From a virus: a stretch of 22,885 nucleotides of DNA. Positions 5,148 through 21,511 of the stretch are shown here, one piece after another. Under the pieces are notes generated by a model. It searched no databases. It was not told the origin of the DNA and saw nothing but the letters and a program-made list of their open reading frames with translations. A program made the translations under genes and the position numbers. Numbering within the stretch: position 1 is the first letter of the stretch; each line of letters opens with the position of its first letter. Where the stretch lies: IMG/VR virus record IMGVR_UViG_3300042474_001335, positions 1 to 22,885 of that record, one strand, 5' to 3'.

Positions 5148-5492
5148 ATGATCGAATATAAATGGTATGTTTCAAATTTAGAAGTTAGACCTTTGCTCGA
5201 AGGAAAAGAGAATGTAGTCCATACTGTTCACTGGAGAGTAAGAGGAGAAGAGACTGTAAATAATAAGACTTATGTGGCTGATATGTATGGGGCATTATCA
5301 GTAGAGCTTAATGCTGAAGGAGATTTCATCGAATTCGCAGATTTGACAGAAGAAGATGTTGTTGCATGGGTCAAAGCTCATCAGGATGTTGAATCTTGTG
5401 AAAACTCTATTGCAACACAAATAGAATTACAAAAAAATCCTGTAAGTATTTCTCCTCCACTTCCATGGAACATTCAAAACACTGATGTTTAA
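5148..5492 (+). CDS. Small fibre-associated protein (paralogue of the 15760 gene)
   Basis: This 114-residue protein starts directly after the fibre stop codon, with a good ribosome site (AAAGAGGA, 5133-5140) seven bases upstream, so it is probably co-translated with the fibre. It shares a pattern with the gene at 15760-16098: an N-terminal (I)EYxW strand, a middle F-(I/E)-x-F-x-x-LTEE motif followed by a V-x-x-W-(I/V)-K helix, and a C-terminal tail with NPxxxxPPxPW or NPPxxxxFPW. Related small proteins occur beside tail genes in marine T4-like phages. Its function is unknown; a small virion subunit or a fibre assembly helper are both possible. There is no signal peptide or membrane segment. 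Confidence 0.8.
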   Translation: MIEYKWYVSNLEVRPLLEGKENVVHTVHWRVRGEETVNNKTYVADMYGALSVELNAEGDFIEFADLTEEDVVAWVKAHQDVESCENSIATQIELQKNPVSISPPLPWNIQNTDV

Positions 5493-5514
5493 ATGGATAA
5501 TCGTCAATTAAAAA

Positions 5515-6048
5515 ATGAGTATATCTTACGGACCAAAATGGAACATTGTTGAGTCATATAATGCCACGGTCACAACTCCTAATCCTTTATTAAAAATATC
5601 CATAAGTTCTGGAGGTGGTGATATAGGAGGAACTTGGGATCACACAATTTCCTCTAGGGGCACACAATTGTATTATGGTTCCATAATCAGGTCTTATGTA
5701 GCCAGCACTTATAGAATGAATTCTGCAACTGGTGTTTTTGCTAATATTGCCAGTACGAGATTGGATGTATATGGAAGCACTACTGATGCTGCTGCTATGA
5801 ACACGTTTTTAACGAATGTGGTTTCAGGCGATCTTCTAGTGATAACCACTTGGGATGAACCTAACAATAATAAAAATTATTTTAGTCAAAATTTGATTGA
5901 TAATTTCGGTAGTAGATTAATCGGAAACAGTTGGGAATTCAGATCGGAATATTTATTAGTTGCGGTTAAAGGTAAAAAATTGCCCATCTATGAACGATAT
6001 GGTGCACGATATCAACAATCAATTTCTGCAACCTTGTGGCTAAGTTAA
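5515..6048 (+). CDS. GG/ILEI-domain virion protein (hinge-like)
   Basis: This 177-residue protein matches the GG (ILEI) domain pattern. It has a glycine-rich entry (GGGDIGGTWD, from about residue 33), a strand ending in LDVYGS (84-88), a helix AAAMNTFL, then GDLLVITTWDEP (105-116), NLIDNFGSRLI, and a last strand with W-x-F-R-S-E-Y-LLVAVKG. The GG domain is known from phage long-tail-fibre apparatus proteins, including T4 gp35, and from animal FAM3 and POMGnT1 proteins. A part in the fibre hinge or in sugar binding is inferred. The start at 5515 has a weak ribosome site; an ATG at 5493 in another frame gives only a 19-codon reading. The call rests on visual motif recognition. Confidence 0.7.
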   Translation: MSISYGPKWNIVESYNATVTTPNPLLKISISSGGGDIGGTWDHTISSRGTQLYYGSIIRSYVASTYRMNSATGVFANIASTRLDVYGSTTDAAAMNTFLTNVVSGDLLVITTWDEPNNNKNYFSQNLIDNFGSRLIGNSWEFRSEYLLVAVKGKKLPIYERYGARYQQSISATLWLS

Positions 6049-8832: not shown

Positions 8833-9885
8833 ATGGCATACGATTTTCCAAGTTCACCTTCTGCTGGAACAGAGTTTGTAGCTTCTACAGGTAGAGTATA
8901 TTTGTATGATAACAGCGGTTCCTGGACAACTAAAGGTGACACACAAACAACTAATCCATTCACAAATGCTTTTAAATATAGGACAATTTATACGAGAGGA
9001 TATACAGGAGGAGGTTATAAAAATTCCACTCCTTGGCGAAATGTAAATAGGACTCAACATGCTTCAGATACAACTTCGAATTTAGGTGATATATTGGACA
9101 GATCATCTGGTTATATAGATGGTGGTTGGAGTGATTATTATGGCTATCTTTACGTTATGAACAATGCAATAAATCAATCTTGGGGTGGAGGAAGTGTATC
9201 AACGTATGTAACATCTTATAATATGACAACGGAAGTAGGAAGAACAAACGACTCAAATTGGAATTTAAAAACAAGTAGATGGGAACCTGGAGTAATTATA
9301 AATGGCAATCTAACGATTGCATGGATCACGGGAGGAGGTTCTACTTCAACAGATAAACATAATTATGTTACAGAGACGATGTATGAATCTGGCAGCGCAC
9401 CCGCTAATCCATTTACGTCAGACCAAACATGTGCTACACTTTTTGGGCAGTTTAGGGGATGGTTAGCTGCGTACGGTGTCGCATCTCTTGAATTTGCAAC
9501 AGAAACATGGATCTCTGGAGGTATGGCATTCACAGGCACAGATGGACATTCAAAGGCTTTAGGTAGTAAACATGGTTATGGTTATGGAAAAAATGCAACA
9601 AATACTGCTACCACACAAGTACATAAGTGGAATGATACTACAGGTAGTACGATTAGAAATGATCTTTACACACCAGATGGTTCAGGAGAAGAAAATTTCC
9701 AACAGGGTCAAAATTGGGGATATTGCGTAGGAAATTACAATGGAGCGCAAAACAACAATACTTATAAAGTTAACTATTTAACTGATAGTATTACTGCAAT
9801 GGGATCAGATACACAACCTAAAGGTCATGATGGTGCCAGTTCCGCAGGATGCTCATCAGCCAGTGCAATGTTATTAGGCGGATAA
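8833..9885 (+). CDS. Tandem virion protein A (beta-propeller-like)
   Basis: This is the first of three neighbouring paralogues. The 350 residues start with MAYDFPSSPSAGTEF, a phage virion N-terminal module followed by a YLYDNSGSW strand. A conserved block KYRTIYTRGYTGGGYKNSTPWRNVNRTQH comes next (split here: KYRTIYTRGY, then PWRNVNRTQH). Later segments repeat a Gly/Trp/Tyr-rich strand pattern with ATETW, KALGSKHGYGYGK, GQNWGYCVGNYNG and QPKGHDG. The periodic strands suggest a small beta-propeller; that fold is inferred. The C-terminus is SSASAMLLGG. The ribosome site is a modest AAAGAGA. Related proteins are widespread beside tail fibres in marine T4-like phages. No enzyme motif is seen. Confidence 0.75.
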   Translation: MAYDFPSSPSAGTEFVASTGRVYLYDNSGSWTTKGDTQTTNPFTNAFKYRTIYTRGYTGGGYKNSTPWRNVNRTQHASDTTSNLGDILDRSSGYIDGGWSDYYGYLYVMNNAINQSWGGGSVSTYVTSYNMTTEVGRTNDSNWNLKTSRWEPGVIINGNLTIAWITGGGSTSTDKHNYVTETMYESGSAPANPFTSDQTCATLFGQFRGWLAAYGVASLEFATETWISGGMAFTGTDGHSKALGSKHGYGYGKNATNTATTQVHKWNDTTGSTIRNDLYTPDGSGEENFQQGQNWGYCVGNYNGAQNNNTYKVNYLTDSITAMGSDTQPKGHDGASSAGCSSASAMLLGG

Positions 9886-9893
9886 TATGGCAT
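9862..9893 (+). repeat. 32-bp junction repeat, copy 1
   Basis: This stretch covers the last codons of protein A, the stop, and the start of protein B. It is identical to 10907-10938 at the B/C junction. It carries the ribosome site, stop and start of the coupled junction. Confidence 0.9.
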
Positions 9894-10930
9894 ATGATTT
9901 TCCAAGTTCACCCGTTGCTAGTACACTATTTGTAGCACCTGTTGGTGTTGTATATGCATATGATAATAGTAGCTCTTGGACAACTAAAGGCGATACACTA
10001 ACTTCAAATCCTTTTACAAATGCTTTTAAATATAGAACGATCTATACACGAGGTTATGTCTCAGCAGGGTATAAAAACGGTAGCCCTTGGCGTAATGTTA
10101 ACAAAACTCAACACACGACGGATGTGACAACTAATTTAGGTGATATGTTGGATGCAAACGCATCCTACATTGGCGGTGGATTTAGTGATTATTATCACTA
10201 CGTATACGGAATGTCAGGCGCAGTAAATGGCTCATCCACAACAACATCATCTGTTAATATGTCTACAGATTCCGGTAGAACACAGAATTCTGCTTGGAAC
10301 ACAAAAACTTCAAGAGGCGATTGTGAAGCATTGATGAATTCGAATTTGACTATTGCTTATATTACCGCAGGAGGTTCTTCGGCCACAGATAAACACAATT
10401 ATGTTACGGAGACAATGATGAATGCTGGAAGCGCACCTGCTAATCCATTGACTTCTGGTGGTACCGCTGGCGGAATTGCAAGTATGTTTGGTGAGTTTAG
10501 AGGATGGATAGGAGTTAACACAAGCGGAGCATACATAGAATGGGCAACTGAAACATGGACTTCAGCAGGGTGGACTACTGACGCCGATGGGCAACCAAAA
10601 GGTTTATCAAGTAAACATGGTTATGGTTATTGTGCTCAAGGCAGTTATAATGGTTCCGCAACATACAGGAAGTTTAATGATTATACAGGAGGAGGTGCTG
10701 TAACTAGTTTTTCTCGCCCAGATACTTGTGGAGAAGAAAACCATCAAATTGGTCAAAACTGGGGATACAGTCTAGGGTCGTACAACGGCAATCAAACTAA
10801 CAACACACAAAAAATTAATTATCTTACGGATACCTCTACTGCTATGGGTTCAGATACGCAACCTAAAGGTCATGATGGAATGAGTTCAGGTTGTTGTGGA
10901 ACAGCAAGTGCAATGTTATTAGGCGGATAA
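9887..10930 (+). CDS. Tandem virion protein B (beta-propeller-like)
   Basis: The second paralogue, 347 residues, starts one base after the stop of A. Its ribosome site (AGGCGG) lies inside the last codons of A, so the two are translationally coupled. It keeps MAYDFPSSP, KYRTIYTRGY, PWRNVNKTQH, TDKHNYVTETM, SKHGYGY, GEENHQIGQNWGY and QPKGHDG, and ends in GTASAMLLGG. Near the end it has SSGCCGTA where A has SSAGCSSA and C has SSAATSSA. The role is presumably the same as A; the three may form a hetero-oligomer or act as alternative host-binding modules. Confidence 0.75.
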   Translation: MAYDFPSSPVASTLFVAPVGVVYAYDNSSSWTTKGDTLTSNPFTNAFKYRTIYTRGYVSAGYKNGSPWRNVNKTQHTTDVTTNLGDMLDANASYIGGGFSDYYHYVYGMSGAVNGSSTTTSSVNMSTDSGRTQNSAWNTKTSRGDCEALMNSNLTIAYITAGGSSATDKHNYVTETMMNAGSAPANPLTSGGTAGGIASMFGEFRGWIGVNTSGAYIEWATETWTSAGWTTDADGQPKGLSSKHGYGYCAQGSYNGSATYRKFNDYTGGGAVTSFSRPDTCGEENHQIGQNWGYSLGSYNGNQTNNTQKINYLTDTSTAMGSDTQPKGHDGMSSGCCGTASAMLLGG

Positions 10931-10938
10931 TATGGCAT
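10907..10938 (+). repeat. 32-bp junction repeat, copy 2
   Basis: This is the exact copy of 9862-9893 at the junction of proteins B and C. The protein-coding bodies on either side are much less alike than this junction. Confidence 0.9.
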
Positions 10939-11981
10939 TTGATTTTCCTTCTTCACCAACCTCAGGAACACAATTCTTAAATATATCTGGAATATATCTT
11001 TATGATAATAGCGGATCTTGGACAACGATAGGTGATACACTCACATCAAATCCTTTTGGATTAAATCCTTTTAAATACAGATCAATTTACACAAGAGGAT
11101 ATGTATCTGGCGGTTATAAGGACGCTTCTCCTTGGCGTAATGTGAATAGAACTGTTCATTATACAGATACAACAACAAATCTTGGTGATTTAATGGATCA
11201 AGCTGCCGCATATACAGACGGTAGTTTTAATGATTATTACCAATACATCTATGCAAGTAGTCCTTCTTGGCCAGGGACAGGCTCTTATACATCATCTATA
11301 AACATGCAAACAGAAGTTGGAAGAACACATTCAAGTTCATGGGATTTAACTCAGAACATGACTCAATATGGTGATGTTGGTGTTGTTATTAATAGCAATT
11401 TAACGATGGCTTGGATTATTGGAAATCAAACATTATTTGATAAACACAATTTAGTAACCGAAATAATGTATTCGGCTGGTACAGGTGGAAGTGGTGGAAC
11501 TGCTGGAGATTTCGTTGCTGCTTGGTATGGAGAACGTTATGGTTGGATTAAACATTCTTATGAAGGTAACAGAAATTTGAAATTAGAGTTCTCAACAGAA
11601 ACATGGTCATCAGGTGGACTTACTGTGGGCACTGATGGATGGGGTAAAGCTTTGCCAACCAAAGATGGATATGCCTATGTAAAAAATGGTGGAAATATCG
11701 TGAACGGAATATATAAAGTGAATGATACAACAGGATCAAACATTCGTACTGATTTGACTGCTCCAGATGGAAATGCTGGAGAAGAGAATTACCAAACAGG
11801 ACAAAATTGGGGTTACTGTTTAGGACACTATAACGGCGCGCAAAACAATAATACATATAAAGTCACCCATGCAACGGATGCTTTAGTTAGTTTGGGTGCA
11901 ACATCTCAACCAAAAGGACATGATGGTATGAGTTCGGCAGCGACATCATCAGCGAGTTCTCAGTTTTTAGGAGGTTTTTAA
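10932..11981 (+). CDS. Tandem virion protein C (beta-propeller-like)
   Basis: The third paralogue, 349 residues, is the most diverged. It keeps MAFDFPSSP, KYRSIYTRGY, PWRNVNRTVH, NLGDLMD, STETW, DGYAYVKNGG, GEENYQTGQNWGY, NYNG-like HYNGAQNNNTYK and QPKGHDGMSS. It lacks the C-terminal cysteines of A and B and ends in SSQFLGGF. It starts one base after the stop of B. Its own end carries a strong ribosome site (AGGAGG, 11969-11974) for the next gene, whose ATG overlaps its stop by one base. The role is virion structure or host recognition, inferred from the paralogues and position. Confidence 0.75.
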   Translation: MAFDFPSSPTSGTQFLNISGIYLYDNSGSWTTIGDTLTSNPFGLNPFKYRSIYTRGYVSGGYKDASPWRNVNRTVHYTDTTTNLGDLMDQAAAYTDGSFNDYYQYIYASSPSWPGTGSYTSSINMQTEVGRTHSSSWDLTQNMTQYGDVGVVINSNLTMAWIIGNQTLFDKHNLVTEIMYSAGTGGSGGTAGDFVAAWYGERYGWIKHSYEGNRNLKLEFSTETWSSGGLTVGTDGWGKALPTKDGYAYVKNGGNIVNGIYKVNDTTGSNIRTDLTAPDGNAGEENYQTGQNWGYCLGHYNGAQNNNTYKVTHATDALVSLGATSQPKGHDGMSSAATSSASSQFLGGF

Positions 11982-14851: not shown

Positions 14852-15733
14852 ATGGAATATTTGTTTAAAGGGCTTTGGTACGTAGCATTTTTAGCATTGG
14901 TAATGTTATTGGCAGCATGGGCTAAAAGAACTAACATCTTTATGCCTTTATACAGATGGATAGCTTTGAATGTTAAATCCAAACGTGCCGTTGTCGCAAT
15001 TATCAGTGCTATTTCTGGAATTTTACCAATTGAAGGTAGAGTTACTGTGTCAGCGGGGTTTTTAGATACGATAGCACCTAATGATAACAGAAAAAGAATA
15101 TATGGTATCATTGATTATCTAAGCACACACCATTACTATTTCTGGTCACCATTGGAAAAGACTGTCATACTACCAATGGCTGTATTGTCACTTAGTTATT
15201 TTGACTTTTTGATTTTAGTTTGGCCACTCATTGCAACATGTCTGATTGTTGGGTTGTTCTATATATTTTTTGTTCTTAAAGAAGAAGATATTGCAATTGA
15301 TTTGGATAAAAAGCAAACTTGTGAACATCACTCGCATGAACAACCTTGGATTCAATGGAAAGTTTTAGCAGCCGTAGCTGGTGTAATTATTCTAGGTAAT
15401 TTTATAAAGAGCTTTGATACACAAATGTATGAGATCGTGAAGAATAATGGATCGATTGCATTTGCTACACTATTAAGTTTTCTGTTCAGCTTTGCAATGG
15501 GAAGTTCAAGTAAATATGCGGGATTTGTTTCCATTCTATCTACAATATTTGGCGCACAATACTTACCGTTATTTTTAGCTGTTGATTATGCCGGTTATAT
15601 GCTTTCACCAACACATAAATGTTTTGCTGTAGGAAAAACATATTTCGACACACCGATTAGCGATTTTTATAAGGCTATTGGTTTTCTTTGTGGCTCTCTA
15701 ATTTTAGTTTCTCTAATAATGATATTACTATAA
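14852..15733 (+). CDS. Multi-pass membrane protein, DUF401-like transporter
   Basis: The 293 residues contain about seven or eight hydrophobic segments (near 5-24, 45-62, 105-118, 120-142, 168-183, 198-215, 220-247 and 271-291). GILPIEGRVTVSAG (from 56) and YMLSPTHKCFAVGKTYF (from 249) resemble the two signature regions of DUF401-type permeases, distant relatives of the gluconate/citrate ion-transporter group, which are usually nearer 400 residues; this copy is shorter. A loop at 154-163 reads KQTCEHHSHE, a possible metal-binding site. It follows the U32-methyltransferase gene by one base, with a GGGAGA ribosome site. In the infected cell it would sit in the host inner membrane. Substrate unknown; assignment is by motif memory and moderate. 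Confidence 0.65.
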   Translation: MEYLFKGLWYVAFLALVMLLAAWAKRTNIFMPLYRWIALNVKSKRAVVAIISAISGILPIEGRVTVSAGFLDTIAPNDNRKRIYGIIDYLSTHHYYFWSPLEKTVILPMAVLSLSYFDFLILVWPLIATCLIVGLFYIFFVLKEEDIAIDLDKKQTCEHHSHEQPWIQWKVLAAVAGVIILGNFIKSFDTQMYEIVKNNGSIAFATLLSFLFSFAMGSSSKYAGFVSILSTIFGAQYLPLFLAVDYAGYMLSPTHKCFAVGKTYFDTPISDFYKAIGFLCGSLILVSLIMILL

Positions 15734-15736
15734 ATA
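15729..15736 (+). promoter_or_regulatory. T4-type late promoter (exact TATAAATA)
   Basis: The octamer is an exact match to the T4 late-promoter -10 element. It overlaps the stop of the membrane-protein gene and lies 24 bases before the next start codon. It would start a late transcript for the small protein, the S74 fibre and possibly the neck genes. In T4 such promoters need gp55, gp33 and the gp45 clamp. Confidence 0.75.
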
Positions 15737-15759
15737 AACAATAAGCATAGGAGAATTGT

Positions 15760-16098
15760 ATGAGTATCGAATATACTTGGAAAGTTACAGGTATTAAAAC
15801 AAAAACTGAAGGAACAAGGGAAAAATCTGTCGTTCAAACTTATTGGTCTAAAATCGGCACAAATGAAGATGGTATTACAGGAACGTATAATGGAGCAACA
15901 CCATTCACTTCAATCGATTTAGCGGATGAAGAATTTATTCCTTTTGAAAATCTAACTGAAGAAATCGTTTTAGATTGGATTAAATCTATCGTTGTCAACG
16001 ATTTTGAACAGCATATTAATAATTCTATATCAAAACAAATAGAAGAAAAAATTAATCCTCCTGTTGATGCTAGATTTCCTTGGGATCCTTTGGAATAA
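15760..16098 (+). CDS. Small fibre-associated protein (paralogue of the 5148 gene)
   Basis: This 112-residue protein is a diverged copy of the one at 5148-5492: SIEYTWKVTGI at the start, FIPFENLTEEIVLDWIK in the middle, then INNSISKQIEEKINPP and FPWDP near the end. It has a clear ribosome site (AGGAG, 15749-15753) and its own late promoter. It stands directly before a long fibre gene, whereas its paralogue stands directly after one, so each long fibre has one partner gene. A fibre-linked structural or assembly role is inferred; the function is not known. Confidence 0.8.
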   Translation: MSIEYTWKVTGIKTKTEGTREKSVVQTYWSKIGTNEDGITGTYNGATPFTSIDLADEEFIPFENLTEEIVLDWIKSIVVNDFEQHINNSISKQIEEKINPPVDARFPWDPLE

Positions 16099-16115
16099 TA
16101 GTTTATAATGTTGCT

Positions 16116-16123
16116 TGTAAATA
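16116..16123 (+). promoter_or_regulatory. Possible weak late promoter (7/8)
   Basis: TGTAAATA differs from TATAAATA at one base. It sits in the 48-base gap before the S74 fibre gene, 23 bases upstream of its ATG. An exact promoter stands 390 bases upstream, so this one is not needed to explain expression. Confidence 0.3.
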
Positions 16124-16146
16124 ACAATAACAGAGCAATTTAACAA

Positions 16147-19100
16147 ATGGCAAATTCAGATAAAGATATCATCATTACTCCAAATAGAGGACAAAGTGAT
16201 GATCCAAAAATAGAGTTTAGAGGTGCGAACACATCCGTTGGTGCACAGACTATTAGTGCTAGAGTGTATCCCACAAGTAATGGAACACTTTCATTCGAAG
16301 GTACCGCGGGACAACTTTTCTCAATAACTAATTCTTTATCTGGTACCATTTTCTCAGTTAATGATGTATCTGGTATTCCTAGTATAGAAGTCTTGGATTC
16401 TGGAATATTGAAATTCGGACAATATAGTGGAAACGTTTTAATTGGAACAGCAACAGACAACGGTAATAAATTAAGAGTAGCTGGTACCGCTCATATCACA
16501 CAACTTGGAGTAGGATCAAATAATAATCAATCATTTGATTTTTACAATAGCGGCACAAGTTATTTTAATGGTACAGCATTTTTTGATAAAGTGGTTACTT
16601 TTGCAGGAAATTCTGGTTCTCAAGGATGGAGCAATATTGTCATTGATGCTTCAACTCCGTCCAATGGTGCTTATATAAGAGCGAATAGGGCATCATCGGG
16701 GGCGGGAGAAGTCGGATATGCTTGGGGAACTGGCGGAACAAATCAGTGGATAAACTTTTTACCAACCGATTCAACGACTCTCAGTTGGTATCAAGGATCG
16801 TCTACTGTTATGACTTTGACAACAACTGGAGCACTTCAATTAAATTCGACAACAGATGGAATGTTTACTCTATCGAAAAGTGGAACTAATTGGAATTATA
16901 TTAATTTTAATACATCAGGTGCAAGAAAATTTTATTTCGGAGTAAATGCTTCAAATGAACCAGAACTGGGCGTTGATAATAATGGAACTTTTCGCCTAGT
17001 CGGTTCACCAGGAATGACAATTAGTGGTAATACTGTGTATCACGGTGGCAATATACCAACGTGGAATCAAAATACAACAGGTACAGCAGCTGGTATTAAT
17101 ACATCTGCACCAACTCTTGCAATAGCAACCGAAGCCAATTCTATCTATGTGAGTGCTCCTTCATATAGCACAGGTCAGATAGTAAAACAATTAAATTTTG
17201 ATTGGTATGGAAATTATTGGGCAATCGGAAACATACGAAGTGGAGCAACTCCTTCAGATGGATTTGGTGTTGCTTATGGAAATAATACACCTTTATTTAT
17301 ATTTTCAAATACTGGTAATGGATTTCAAGCAGGAAACGCATTCACTTATGACAACTCTGGTGGATGGGGAGCAAATTTAGTAGCTGCTGGATCATCTCAT
17401 GCGAGGGTCAGACTTCGCGCAACATCTTATAATGGTAGCGGAGACAGAGAAACTTATATGTGGTTGGACAATACTACTAGTCCAGCTACTGGAATATATT
17501 CAACTGCTCCAACTTTTAATTTCGTAGGAAGTATTACCACAGTTCAAGTTGCAGGTAATACGGTCCTTCATGCAGGCAACTACACTTCTTATGCTGCAAC
17601 CAGTGGACACAATCACACATATAATGTTAACAATGACTGGTTAAGAGATAATGGTGACGATAATCAATTCAAAATTTATGGTAATAGTAGAACTATAATT
17701 TATCGTACAGATGGTAATACTAATGAACACGGTGGAGGTAATTACGCGCACATATTCTATTATGGTGGTAGTGCTGATGGTAATAGAGTTTTTATAATTA
17801 ATACGGATGGTAGATTGTGGTCGCCTTATCACGGCTGGCTCGACACGATGAGTGTTTCATATGCTTCTTCTGCTGGTACTGCGGATAATATTGATGGATG
17901 GGGTTTCGTAAACACTGGAAACAATAGCGCAGTTAATGCAAACACAATTGACAGTAATGGTATTAGCTATTATCAATCGGGTGTAGACAACTTTTCGCTA
18001 AATTCCACTGATGGTGCACTTTATTCACAAAGATATTCTAGCGATTGGCAACACCAAATTGCTGGTGATTATCGTGAAGGTAATATAGCAGTTCGTGGAA
18101 AAAATGGCGGAACTTGGGCACGATGGAAACCAATTCCTACATTAACTATAAGCGATACTGCTCCTGGTAATGAAACAGTAGGAGATATGTGGTGGGAGTC
18201 GGATACTGGTAAATTAAAAATTTATTATTATGACGGTAATACTTCTCAATGGGTCGATGCAATGCCCATTCCTGATACATCAACATTTTTTAGTAAGGCT
18301 GGTGGTTCTATTACAGGTGCAGTAACGATAAACAGTTCATTAACGGTAACAGGAAGAATTTATGCTGATGCTGGTATTAGAGTAGCACAAAATAGTTCTT
18401 CAGGATTAGCTAGTGGCATAGATATCACTAACACAGATATTAGAAGTAATGCTGTCAGTGCTTGGACAGGAAACCCAGGCGCGCAAGGAAAAATTCAATA
18501 TCATAGCTATCGTTGGTATATTGTTTCAGATAGTTCTTCTGATCGTATTGTACAATTTAGAAGAGATGGTAGTGATGTATCATATATTGATAATAGTGGA
18601 AACTATGTTGGTAATGTGAGCGGTAACGCAACAACAGCCACTACCGCTAGTGCTGTTGCAGCATCCGCTATCACAGGTCAAACAGGTATGTGGACAAGTT
18701 CTGCTCGACCAGGACCATATCGATTATACCGCCGCGATGACAACAGCGACTACAGTGTGCAAACCCACTGGACTGGTAGTTATTGGAGATTATATGGTTA
18801 TGCCGGAGATACGGCACACGCGGATACACATGTTGGATATGCAGACAGTGCTGGAAATGGTGGCGTCACATCAGTAAATGGACAAACTGGTGCGGTTACT
18901 ATTTCGGGTGGTGCATCACTCTCAAATGATACATCAACAAATAATAATTTGTTTTATCCTACGATGGCGTATAATGCCACATCTGGAACACTTTCAACCG
19001 CATATGTTTCATCAACTAAATTATACTTTAATCCATCGACAGGAACATTAAGTGCAACGGTAATGACATCCATATCGGATAGAAATGTCAAAGAAAATAT

Positions 19101-19362
19101 AGTAACTATAGAAAACGCACTATCAAAAACACTTTCTCTTCGTGGAGTTAATTATACACTCAAAGACACTCAACAAAAATCTATAGGTGTTATAGCGCAA
19201 GAAGTTGAAGAAATTTTACCGGAAGTTGTTAATACATCCGACGACGGAACAAAAAGTGTTCAATATGGAAATATGATAGGACTTCTAATAGAAGCTATCA
19301 AAGAACAGCAGTCCGAAATAGAAGAACTCAAAACATTAGTCAAAAAAATGCTGGAAAAATGA
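16147..19362 (+). CDS. Long tail fibre with C-terminal peptidase S74 chaperone
   Basis: The 1071-residue protein has an N-terminal region with ITPNRGQSDDPKIEFRG, a GNVLIGTATDNGNKL repeat, then fibre signatures: TVYHGGN (about 297-302), TVLHAGN (about 473-478) and SGHNHTYN (486-493), followed by Tyr/Trp/Gly-rich strands and TSVNGQTGAV. The last ~95 residues are an intramolecular chaperone of the peptidase S74 type: SDRNVKENI (from S977), GVIAQEVEEILPEVV, then YGNMIGLLIEAIKEQQSEIEEL as a final coiled coil (split: YGNMIGLLIEAIKE, QQSEIEEL). S977 and K982 have the Ser/+5 Lys spacing of the known self-cleaving dyad, so release of the chaperone after trimer folding is expected. It probably is a host-recognition fibre. 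The ribosome site is weak. Confidence 0.9.
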   Translation: MANSDKDIIITPNRGQSDDPKIEFRGANTSVGAQTISARVYPTSNGTLSFEGTAGQLFSITNSLSGTIFSVNDVSGIPSIEVLDSGILKFGQYSGNVLIGTATDNGNKLRVAGTAHITQLGVGSNNNQSFDFYNSGTSYFNGTAFFDKVVTFAGNSGSQGWSNIVIDASTPSNGAYIRANRASSGAGEVGYAWGTGGTNQWINFLPTDSTTLSWYQGSSTVMTLTTTGALQLNSTTDGMFTLSKSGTNWNYINFNTSGARKFYFGVNASNEPELGVDNNGTFRLVGSPGMTISGNTVYHGGNIPTWNQNTTGTAAGINTSAPTLAIATEANSIYVSAPSYSTGQIVKQLNFDWYGNYWAIGNIRSGATPSDGFGVAYGNNTPLFIFSNTGNGFQAGNAFTYDNSGGWGANLVAAGSSHARVRLRATSYNGSGDRETYMWLDNTTSPATGIYSTAPTFNFVGSITTVQVAGNTVLHAGNYTSYAATSGHNHTYNVNNDWLRDNGDDNQFKIYGNSRTIIYRTDGNTNEHGGGNYAHIFYYGGSADGNRVFIINTDGRLWSPYHGWLDTMSVSYASSAGTADNIDGWGFVNTGNNSAVNANTIDSNGISYYQSGVDNFSLNSTDGALYSQRYSSDWQHQIAGDYREGNIAVRGKNGGTWARWKPIPTLTISDTAPGNETVGDMWWESDTGKLKIYYYDGNTSQWVDAMPIPDTSTFFSKAGGSITGAVTINSSLTVTGRIYADAGIRVAQNSSSGLASGIDITNTDIRSNAVSAWTGNPGAQGKIQYHSYRWYIVSDSSSDRIVQFRRDGSDVSYIDNSGNYVGNVSGNATTATTASAVAASAITGQTGMWTSSARPGPYRLYRRDDNSDYSVQTHWTGSYWRLYGYAGDTAHADTHVGYADSAGNGGVTSVNGQTGAVTISGGASLSNDTSTNNNLFYPTMAYNATSGTLSTAYVSSTKLYFNPSTGTLSATVMTSISDRNVKENIVTIENALSKTLSLRGVNYTLKDTQQKSIGVIAQEVEEILPEVVNTSDDGTKSVQYGNMIGLLIEAIKEQQSEIEELKTLVKKMLEK

Positions 19363-19410
19363 ATATATATACTTGTATTGGTCTTAGATCATTATTAATT
19401 GGAGATTTAA

Positions 19411-19611
19411 ATGAATAAATTTAGTTTAACTGATTTGTCGATTGAAGAAGTGAATGTCATCATCGCTGGTTTGCTCGAACTTCCTGGAAAAGTCGGCTTA
19501 AATGTTTTTGCTAAAGTGAAACAACAAGCTGAGGAACAAGCTAGACAAATGCCTCAAGCGCAGGAAACTAACGTTCCAGAAGGACCACTTAGTGATAAAG
19601 TGATGAATTAA
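19411..19611 (+). CDS. Hypothetical 66-residue protein
   Basis: This short protein has a helical N-terminal part, LSIEEVNVIIAGLLELPGKV, then an amphipathic helix VFAKVKQQAEEQARQ and a Pro/Gln/Glu-rich tail. Small proteins of this type (a short hydrophobic helix-loop with GLxxLPxxxxxNVxxKxxQQ) are common in phage structural regions, but I know no function. It has a clear ribosome site (GGAGA). It lies between the S74 fibre and the gp13 regulatory hairpin, in a 48-base and a 53-base setting with no terminator visible. Confidence 0.7.
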   Translation: MNKFSLTDLSIEEVNVIIAGLLELPGKVGLNVFAKVKQQAEEQARQMPQAQETNVPEGPLSDKVMN

Positions 19612-19614
19612 AAT

Positions 19615-19671
19615 CTGCCATTTATCATCATTATAAATAAATTATAATATCTAAAGGATGATAAATGGCAG
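19615..19671 (+). promoter_or_regulatory. Inverted repeat hiding the gp13 start codon
   Basis: The left arm 19615-19629 and right arm 19657-19671 are perfect 15-bp reverse complements with a 27-base loop. The gp13 ATG (19665-19667) lies in the right arm and the end of its AAAGG ribosome site (19653-19657) touches the stem. The loop contains the exact late promoter. No run of T follows, so it is not an intrinsic terminator. RNA read from upstream should fold and block gp13; RNA started at the late promoter lacks the left arm. Confidence 0.75.
19632..19639 (+). promoter_or_regulatory. T4-type late promoter (exact TATAAATA)
   Basis: This exact late octamer lies inside the loop of the inverted repeat. 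A start site some 5-8 bases downstream would be at about 19644-19648, after the left arm and before the ribosome site. It serves the gp13-gp14-gp15-gp16 group. Confidence 0.8.
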
Positions 19672-20615
19672 CTCCTTCAACTAGAAAAGAATTCAAAGAT
19701 TATTGTCTCCGTAAACTGGGACATCCTGTAATTCAAATTAATGTTGATGATGATCAAGTAGAGGATCGAATAGACGATGCTCTACAGTTTTTCCACGACT
19801 ATCACTTCGATGGCGTGGAAAAACTCTTTATGAAACATAGAATTACGCAAGAAGATATTGACAGAGGATGGATTTATGTTCCTGAGGCTGTCATATTTGT
19901 CACTGGTGTAATGCCTTTCGATCAATCAAATTCTTCTGTAAATATGTTTGATTTGAGATATCAACTCAGATTGCATGATTTATATGATTTTACCTCAGTT
20001 TCATATGTCTCTTATGAAATAACCATGCAGCATATTAGGACTTTGAACCTTTTGTTCTCAGGAACACCACAGTTTAGATTTAATCGCCATCAAGATAAAT
20101 TGTTTTTGGACATAGATTGGAGTGGTGATCTAAATGTAGGTGAATATGTTGTTGTGGAGTGTTATAGAAAATTGGATCCAGATACAATTTCTTTATCTGG
20201 AACAGCAGCAATAAGCATATCTTCTACTACTGTCACAGGAACAGGAACTAAGTTTGATCAAGATATTGTTCCTGGCGATTTCATTAGTTTTGGTGATGAA
20301 TTAAAGAGAGTCAAGGCTATTATTTCTCCAACAGAATTAACAGTTGATACCGTGTTTGGTTCTAATGCATCAGTCAGTATGACTAAATCTGGCGTATCAG
20401 ACGTTTGGAATGATAGATTTTTAAAACGTTATGCAACAGCACTTATCAAAAAACAGTGGGGCGAAAATCTTAAAAAGTTCGCAGGCATTCAAATGCCAGG
20501 TGGTGTAACATTAAATGGTAAAGAAATTTGGGATGAAGCCGTTGAAGAAATCAATAAGGTTGAAGAAGAATTGATAAACACTAATGTATTACCAAGCGAA
20601 ATGTTTATTGGTTAA
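19665..20615 (+). CDS. gp13: Neck protein gp13 (head completion)
   Basis: The 316-residue protein has the order of T4-type gp13: an N-terminal helix region TRKEFKDYCLRKLGHPVI and DDALQFFHDYHFDGVE, a strand VTGVMPFDQS, FDLRYQLRLHDLYDF, FRFNRHQDKLFLDIDW, YRKLDPDT, and WNDRFLKRYATALIKKQWG with MPGGVTLNGKEIWDEA. In T4, gp13 and gp14 form the neck that closes the filled head before tail joining. A beta-rich module at about 175-245 (VTGTGTKF, VPGDFISFG, SPTELTVD) sits between LDPDT and VWNDRF and looks like an insertion. T4 gp13 has 309 residues, so overall length is similar. Translation is probably limited by the hairpin at its start. The assignment is supported by gp14-gp15-gp16 downstream. Confidence 0.9.
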   Translation: MAAPSTRKEFKDYCLRKLGHPVIQINVDDDQVEDRIDDALQFFHDYHFDGVEKLFMKHRITQEDIDRGWIYVPEAVIFVTGVMPFDQSNSSVNMFDLRYQLRLHDLYDFTSVSYVSYEITMQHIRTLNLLFSGTPQFRFNRHQDKLFLDIDWSGDLNVGEYVVVECYRKLDPDTISLSGTAAISISSTTVTGTGTKFDQDIVPGDFISFGDELKRVKAIISPTELTVDTVFGSNASVSMTKSGVSDVWNDRFLKRYATALIKKQWGENLKKFAGIQMPGGVTLNGKEIWDEAVEEINKVEEELINTNVLPSEMFIG

Positions 20616-20617
20616 TT

Positions 20618-21511
20618 ATGTCCACAAATTTCTATTTCAATAATTTTCCCCAACACCAAATAACAAGTGAGCAGTTACTCGTTGAAGATTTGGTGATTGA
20701 AGCAATGCAGATCCATGGCATGGACGTTTTTTATTTACCACGTTCAACAAGAGATGAAGTCGATTATCTATACGGTGAAGACACACTCAAAGAGTATCGA
20801 AATGCATATAGTATAGAAATGTATCTTGAAAATGTTACAGGAATGGATGGTGAAGGTGATTTCATTTCAAAATTTGGCTTAGAAGTCAGAGATGAAATAA
20901 CTTTACTTGTATCGAGAAGAAGATTCGGATACACTGTTCCACAAAAGAGACCTAATGAAGGCGATTTGATTTACATTCCTCTTATAAGAAATTTCTTTGA
21001 GGTCACTTTCGTCGAACATGAAAATGATCAAGCGATGTTTTATACATTAGGTAGAGGACGAGGCGGTAATGTATATGTCTATGCTCTTAAATTAAAACAA
21101 TTTGTCTTCTCGGAAGAAATTATTTCAACTGGTGTTCAAGAAATCGATAAAGAAGCAGAATCTTCTTATAAGAGAATTCGTCTACCTTTAGCAAATACTG
21201 GTACAGGAAGTTATGTTCCAGGTGAAATTGTATATCAAGGCACTTCTTTAGCCAATTCCACTGCTCAAGCCATTGTTTATTCATACACTCCTCATAGTGA
21301 ATTGACTGTAATCCGTGTAATTGGTCAATTCACAAGTAGCGCAAATGCAATAGGAAATACAAGTGGTGCATTAAGAACACCAGTCACAGTTGATGAACTT
21401 GATTCCGTCGGAAATAATGTATTCGAAGATATCACAGATAATAAGAGGATCGAACAAGAAGCTGATGACATCTTAGACTTTACTGAAACTAATCCATTTG
21501 GAGAACCATAA
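20618..21511 (+). CDS. gp14: Neck protein gp14
   Basis: The 297-residue protein begins with STNFYFNNFPQHQITSEQLL and continues with EAMQIHGMDVFYLPR, DEVDYLYGED, AYSIEMYLENV, GDFISKFGLEVRDE, SRRRFGY and RPNEGDLIYIPL, all typical of T4-type gp14. With gp13 it forms the neck at the head portal. Residues ~199-252 (YVPGEIVYQG, AQAIVYSY, ELTVIRVIGQF, GNTSGAL) form a small beta module like one in the gp15 product. The C-terminus NKRIEQEADDILDFTETNPFGEP is a conserved gp14 ending. It starts two bases after gp13 without a strong ribosome site, so translation is probably coupled. Confidence 0.92.
   Translation: MSTNFYFNNFPQHQITSEQLLVEDLVIEAMQIHGMDVFYLPRSTRDEVDYLYGEDTLKEYRNAYSIEMYLENVTGMDGEGDFISKFGLEVRDEITLLVSRRRFGYTVPQKRPNEGDLIYIPLIRNFFEVTFVEHENDQAMFYTLGRGRGGNVYVYALKLKQFVFSEEIISTGVQEIDKEAESSYKRIRLPLANTGTGSYVPGEIVYQGTSLANSTAQAIVYSYTPHSELTVIRVIGQFTSSANAIGNTSGALRTPVTVDELDSVGNNVFEDITDNKRIEQEADDILDFTETNPFGEP

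Follow-up and report, generated by a model that had tools for sequence, protein, structure and literature searches.

A probable translational gate formed by RNA over the start of the neck protein gene gp13 in a T4-like phage fragment

Why should the start codon of a phage neck protein gene lie in one arm of a perfect inverted repeat, with a late promoter box between the arms? The question is raised by a 22,885-base fragment of a T4-like phage (the whole stretch of DNA analysed, hereafter the window), in which tail-fibre and baseplate genes are followed by gp13, gp14 and gp15, the last two encoding Hc2 and the tail sheath stabilizer downstream of the gp13 product Ad2. A DNA similarity search with the window returned no close cultured relative. 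A sequence-only reading of this DNA had described a 15-bp perfect inverted repeat spanning the gp13 start, with an exact late promoter box in its 27-base loop, and had held such a pairing to be very unlikely by chance. All of this was borne out. Fifteen of 15 positions pair across a loop of 27 nt, the box TATAAATA lies within that loop, and the gp13 AUG (19665) is contained entirely in the right arm (Table 1). The window holds no other perfect arm of at least 13 bp with a loop of at most 60 nt. A 15-bp repeat arose in 1 of 100 windows shuffled with a first-order Markov control and in 1 of 250 shuffled with a second-order one; the analytic expectation for independent bases is 2e-3 per window and falls to 3e-5 for a repeat required to span any of the 19 gene starts. 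Overall, the chance expectation of the repeat is about 0.002-0.01 per window.

Table 1 Features around the gp13 start and the upstream late promoter in the window.
Feature	Position	Strand	Remark
66-aa gene, no assigned function	19411..19611	+	stop 3 nt ahead of left arm
Hairpin left arm CTGCCATTTATCATC	19615..19629	+	carried only by read-through RNA
Inner AT helix, 7 bp (19630-19636/19642-19648), 5-nt loop	19630..19648	+	fold prediction
T4-type late promoter box TATAAATA (-13..-6)	19632..19639	+	in loop; exact match; kept in L088/L089
Predicted late start (+1), leader 20 nt	19645..19645	+	inferred from T4 late box position (PMC1524935)
gp13 Shine-Dalgarno AAAGGA	19653..19658	+	only last two bases within stem
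Hairpin right arm GATGATAAATGGCAG	19657..19671	+	contains SD end and gp13 AUG
gp13, neck / head-tail adaptor Ad2, 316 aa	19665..20615	+	PHROG 211, E 1.1e-43
Upstream late promoter box TATAAATA	15729..15736	+	can feed read-through RNA into gp13

A stable stem located between genes might be taken for an intrinsic terminator or attenuator separating the tail-fibre from the neck genes. This stem, however, is AT-rich, its right arm reaches into gp13 and no U-run follows it, and a scan of the + strand from 15500 to 20700 found no terminator. Such a function, dismissed by the sequence-only reading for want of a T-run, is rejected here also, and we give it practically no weight.

Whether the box in the loop is a promoter cannot be read from its frequency, as TATAAATA is not enriched in the window (3 found, 3.5 expected). 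Its position is more telling. All three ATAAATA motifs on the + strand of the window stand a short distance ahead of a gene start, 30 nt before the genes at 8833 and 15760 and 32 nt before gp13, so that an exact TATAAATA precedes this late gene at a short and fixed distance. Homologues of the late sigma factor gp55 were detected in 9 of the 13 records searched, which comprised relatives and reference phages, the window itself being a 22.9-kb fragment, and NATAAATA serves as a late promoter in cyanophages (PMC2984593). Position, gp55 in relatives and cyanophage usage together indicate that the box at 19632-19639 is likely a real late promoter. Since the T4 late promoter box occupies -13 to -6 (PMC1524935), transcription would be expected to start near 19645.

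The sequence-only reading had suggested that this geometry permits a switch, in which the start site would be accessible or not depending on where the RNA begins, and had named the two segments whose folding should reveal it. The segment 19600-19700 folds with -24.1 kcal/mol (z -4.5 against shuffled sequences) and the segment 19645-19700 with only -4.3 kcal/mol (z +0.5). In the longer fold, the inner 7-bp AT helix is predicted to stack atop the 15-bp stem. We quantified accessibility as an opening cost, i.e., the free energy needed to unpair positions -12 to +5 of a gene start, in read-through RNA and in late RNA, the latter modelled as starting 6 nt past the promoter box. For gp13, this cost amounts to 18.3 kcal/mol on read-through RNA and to 4.3 kcal/mol on late RNA from 19645 (23.4 and 6.5 at 20 °C), in agreement with the suggested switch. 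Computed in long contexts, the probability of being unpaired is at most 0.002 for the bases of the AUG, while the arm pairs form with a probability of 0.99. When the 5' end is moved along the sequence, the gp13 start becomes free once the RNA begins at or after about 19624; the left arm ends at 19629, and late RNA beginning at the predicted +1 would lack this 5' strand of the helix. The two other late promoters of the window show no hairpin effect on opening cost.

The hairpin, in our view, probably acts in cis as an RNA gate of the T4 gene e type, which would block translation of gp13 on read-through RNA. According to this model, RNA begun further upstream (at the 15729 box, for instance, no terminator having been found between it and gp13) would carry both arms; the 15-bp stem and the inner helix would then bury the start codon, and such RNA would be translated poorly for gp13. 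RNA begun at the TATAAATA in the loop would start near 19645 without the left arm and leave the ribosome site open, so that most gp13 synthesis would depend on the late promoter of the gene itself. We infer the true 5' end of the late RNA, the repression itself and the purpose, which may be to uncouple synthesis of the neck protein from the tail-fibre transcript or from any early transcript.

As a calibration, the same calculation was applied to 28 promoter-gene pairs across the whole T4 genome. The top-ranking genes were e, I-TevII, 26, segB and 49, all of which are listed as hairpin-regulated in reviews (PMC3014915, PMC2988022); for e, the computed costs are 15.0 on read-through and 4.6 kcal/mol on late RNA. 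A scan for differences in opening cost thus recovers known T4 cases from sequence alone, which makes it possible to catalogue such gates in T4-like phages and to probe them with reporters. In seven long records of relatives or reference phages, most of the 69 genes with a late promoter cost 4-6 kcal/mol, and 10% of them reach at least 10 kcal/mol compared with 2.1% in a swap null. The opening cost of gp13 in the window exceeds that of all 69. The best match among them, an HNH endonuclease gene (L266:17452-17904; 17.8 versus 4.6 kcal/mol), belongs to a class already known to be gated and has the layout of T4 segB and Aeh1 mobE. Two PHROG 1462 genes without assigned function from different phages (L299:723-1844 and L274:2134-3318) have in common a hairpin over the start with the promoter in one arm, GATAAATACTCCA...TGGAG(T), with 13.6 and 10.0 kcal/mol, respectively.

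The sequence-only reading had also noted that T4 e and some other T4 genes use such hairpins, and the two reviews agree. The gp13 hairpin of the window resembles that of T4 e: in both, AUG and SD lie in a stem on read-through RNA, initiation at the late promoter removes the left arm, and the stop codon of the upstream gene abuts that arm. They differ in that TATAAATA is part of the left arm in T4 e, whereas the box of the window is located within the loop, with a left arm that is wholly upstream of it; moreover, e is a lysis gene behind early genes, while gp13 of the window is a structural gene behind tail-fibre genes. In T4 segB, I-TevI/II/III and Aeh1 mobE, the SD or AUG is likewise hidden on the long RNA and freed on the late one (PMC2988022), but these are mobile-element genes for homing endonucleases. 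T4 soc, 49 and 26 are late genes like gp13, some of them for virion proteins, with a structured start on the longer RNA (PMC3014915, PMC2988022); they differ from the window as to gene and sequence.

The close spacing of the 66-aa gene and the hairpin allows a different role for upstream translation. The stop codon (19609-19611) is separated by 3 nt from the left arm, half of which might be opened by a ribosome that halts there. Partial translational coupling is therefore conceivable: ribosomes finishing the 66-aa gene would melt the stem, gp13 synthesis from read-through RNA would be proportional to that of the 66-aa protein, and the late promoter would be an additional source. In keeping with this, the 66-aa gene has a good SD of its own (GGAG) and a stop that abuts the left arm, and a ribosome edge placed near 19621-19622 lowers the computed cost from about 17 to about 6-7 kcal/mol. 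T4 e, however, has the same layout, the nudE stop preceding the left arm by 1 nt, and its read-through RNA is nevertheless repressed about 100-fold (PMC3014915). The gp13 SD lies about 45 nt past the stop, so that re-formation of the stem should win after ribosome release, and the other lineages with a gp13 hairpin have different genes upstream. Partial coupling is the main rival to the gate, and we judge it unlikely.

The 66-aa gene recurs in seven viral contigs (L083-L089), all of which keep both arms and the box, with the arms unchanged. In L088 and L089, whose 66-aa protein is 81% identical to that of the window, two loop bases differ and the cost stays at 20.5 kcal/mol; in the close relative L003 (20.5 versus 4.3 kcal/mol), the inner helix is rearranged into another inner helix. 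The sequence-only reading had looked to related phages for compensating changes in the arms. Within the clade, arms and box are conserved, and as no base of the arms varies in L083-L089, the absence of compensatory changes there speaks neither for nor against the stem. Arms identical among close relatives, in a sequence restricted to one clade, are also what would be expected of a young feature, such as a chance repeat or the roleless relic of a recent template switch that copied one arm. Against this stand the chance expectation at a gene start (about 3e-5), the persistence of arms and promoter in L088/L089 despite the divergence of the adjacent protein, the loop changes there that leave the cost high, and the recurrence of similar devices in other lineages. 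We regard chance or a relic as very improbable.

These other lineages place the gate of the window in a wider context. In relatives with about 70-75% identical gp13, the upstream DNA differs from that of the window. One lineage among the other gp13 genes, with sub-groups around L012/L014/L063, around L017/L026/L143-L147 and L021, has gates of 10-18 kcal/mol. As in the window, the start of the same gene is hidden on read-through RNA, with the late promoter 26-29 nt upstream in L012/L014/L063 and L017/L021/L143. Unlike in the window, but as in T4 e, the left arm there is formed by the promoter box, which pairs with the start codon (for example, GGCATAAATAGTCC with GGACTATTATGCC); the arms are not homologous to those of the window. 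Most other gp13 lineages have a promoter without a gate or no promoter at all. The sequence-only reading had regarded related phages that keep the promoter but lose the pairing without compensation as the case that would speak against it; there are many lineages with a late promoter and no hairpin. Promoters 11-14 nt ahead of gp13, as found in many relatives, were left out of this hairpin test because almost no leader remains. Among 22 gp13 clusters, the excess of hairpins is modest but present (Fisher p 0.0015). On the gp13 tree, the hairpin state requires 4-6 changes, and the clade of the window is separate from the other hairpin clade. No strong gate occurs in the gp13 leaders of 21 isolates including T4; S-SM2 reaches 7.6 and Mosig 7.3 kcal/mol, both weak values, and no TATAAATA precedes T4 gene 13. 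The hairpin is a feature of lineages and not a rule of the gp13 family.

Loss within the other lineage bears on yet another explanation, namely that the stem serves the upstream RNA, as a stabiliser of its 3' end or as an RNase processing site, the hiding of the AUG being a by-product. The length and perfection of the stem and its place right behind the final stop codon of the upstream genes fit such a role. It leaves unexplained, however, why the late promoter occupies precisely the space between the arms in the window and the left arm in the other hairpin lineages, and also why L016 and L136-L140, the nearest relatives of L021, lack the late promoter together with the left arm and keep the right-arm sequence GGACTATTATGGCC. 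A function for the upstream RNA therefore appears highly unlikely to us as the main explanation.

Left and right parts were also exchanged between lineages. In their own combinations, they give 19.4 kcal/mol for the window, 13.2, 15.3 and 18.0 kcal/mol for three others and 15.0 kcal/mol for T4 e, while the arms of the window and of T4 e in foreign combinations reach only 4-8 kcal/mol. Swapping the left parts among lineages mostly removes the gate, and none of 42 left arms from other lineages reaches the opening cost of the window when joined to its gp13 start. A case outside gp13 came from a pattern search over viral contigs for GCCATTTAT..ATAAATGGC, which was blind to gp13. It returned 44 places; seven of these are the clade of the window and most others are short chance matches. 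The sole other 15-bp case is L095, where, on the reverse strand, a perfect 15-bp stem covers the start codon of an ORF for 98 aa without assigned function (5315-5611), with TATAAATA inside the left arm. L095 is an unrelated T4-like contig with a T4-type DNA polymerase, and the 98-aa gene adjoins an exonuclease gene near replication genes.

What, then, would the gate in the window achieve? Gates of this type are known from a few T4 genes, namely those for lysozyme and homing endonucleases as well as soc and 49. The known cases share transcripts with early or middle genes (PMC2988022), and the explanation given is that late products are thereby not made from early RNA. Upstream of gp13, the genes visible in the window are tail-fibre genes, late-type and provided with their own late box at 15729. 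Because these upstream genes are themselves late-type, the scheme of early silent and late on may instead be one of upstream promoter silent and own promoter on. Here the gate would guard a core virion gene of uncultured phages; it takes two or more unrelated forms and would act on RNA that is apparently already late. This suggests that such a device also determines the late promoter to which a gene responds. A further-reaching version, which we put forward tentatively and hold to be less probable than the gate as such, is a late-on-late gate that would keep an essential neck protein off the tail-fibre late transcript, would leave its dosage to its own promoter only, and would have evolved at gp13 on no fewer than two occasions among uncultured T4-like phages, each time with other arms and another geometry. 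Beyond the T4 cases, a literature search largely limited to freely accessible papers brought up no report of hairpin and late-promoter control for gp13 or neck genes, in line, within that scope, with the sequence-only reading, which knew of no description for the neck operon. The device is of a known kind. What is new is that it concerns a neck protein gene, that it occurs in uncultured phages, that the box is placed in the loop with a left arm entirely upstream, and that the arrangement is apparently late-on-late.

Several further structures were noted around gp13. In L005, L011, L173 and L192, gp13 is preceded by a CTAAATA promoter and a TTGACT/AGTCAA hairpin (AGTCAAGAGG on its right side) with 8-15 kcal/mol, possibly a further gp13 gate with an Aeh1-like promoter; since CTAAATA is known as a late promoter only from Aeh1 (PMC1524935), these cases were not counted as gates. 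L256, at the T4 wac-13 junction, carries a GC hairpin, GGGGCCGCAAGGCCCC, directly ahead of an open SD, and in L309 (S-RIM32) a small ORF and gp13 are separated by a hairpin that, with its T-run, resembles a terminator and includes GATAAATA in its loop region. A perfect 12-bp inverted repeat lies within the gp13 coding sequence of the window (19786-19825). It is kept in the close relative L003, retains 11 of 12 pairs in L166 and 7-10 of 12 in most others, and thus decays with distance from the window. Elsewhere in the window, three consecutive ORFs for 347-350 aa (8833-11981), with the starts MAYDFPS, MAYDFPS and MAFDFPS, resemble tandem paralogues.
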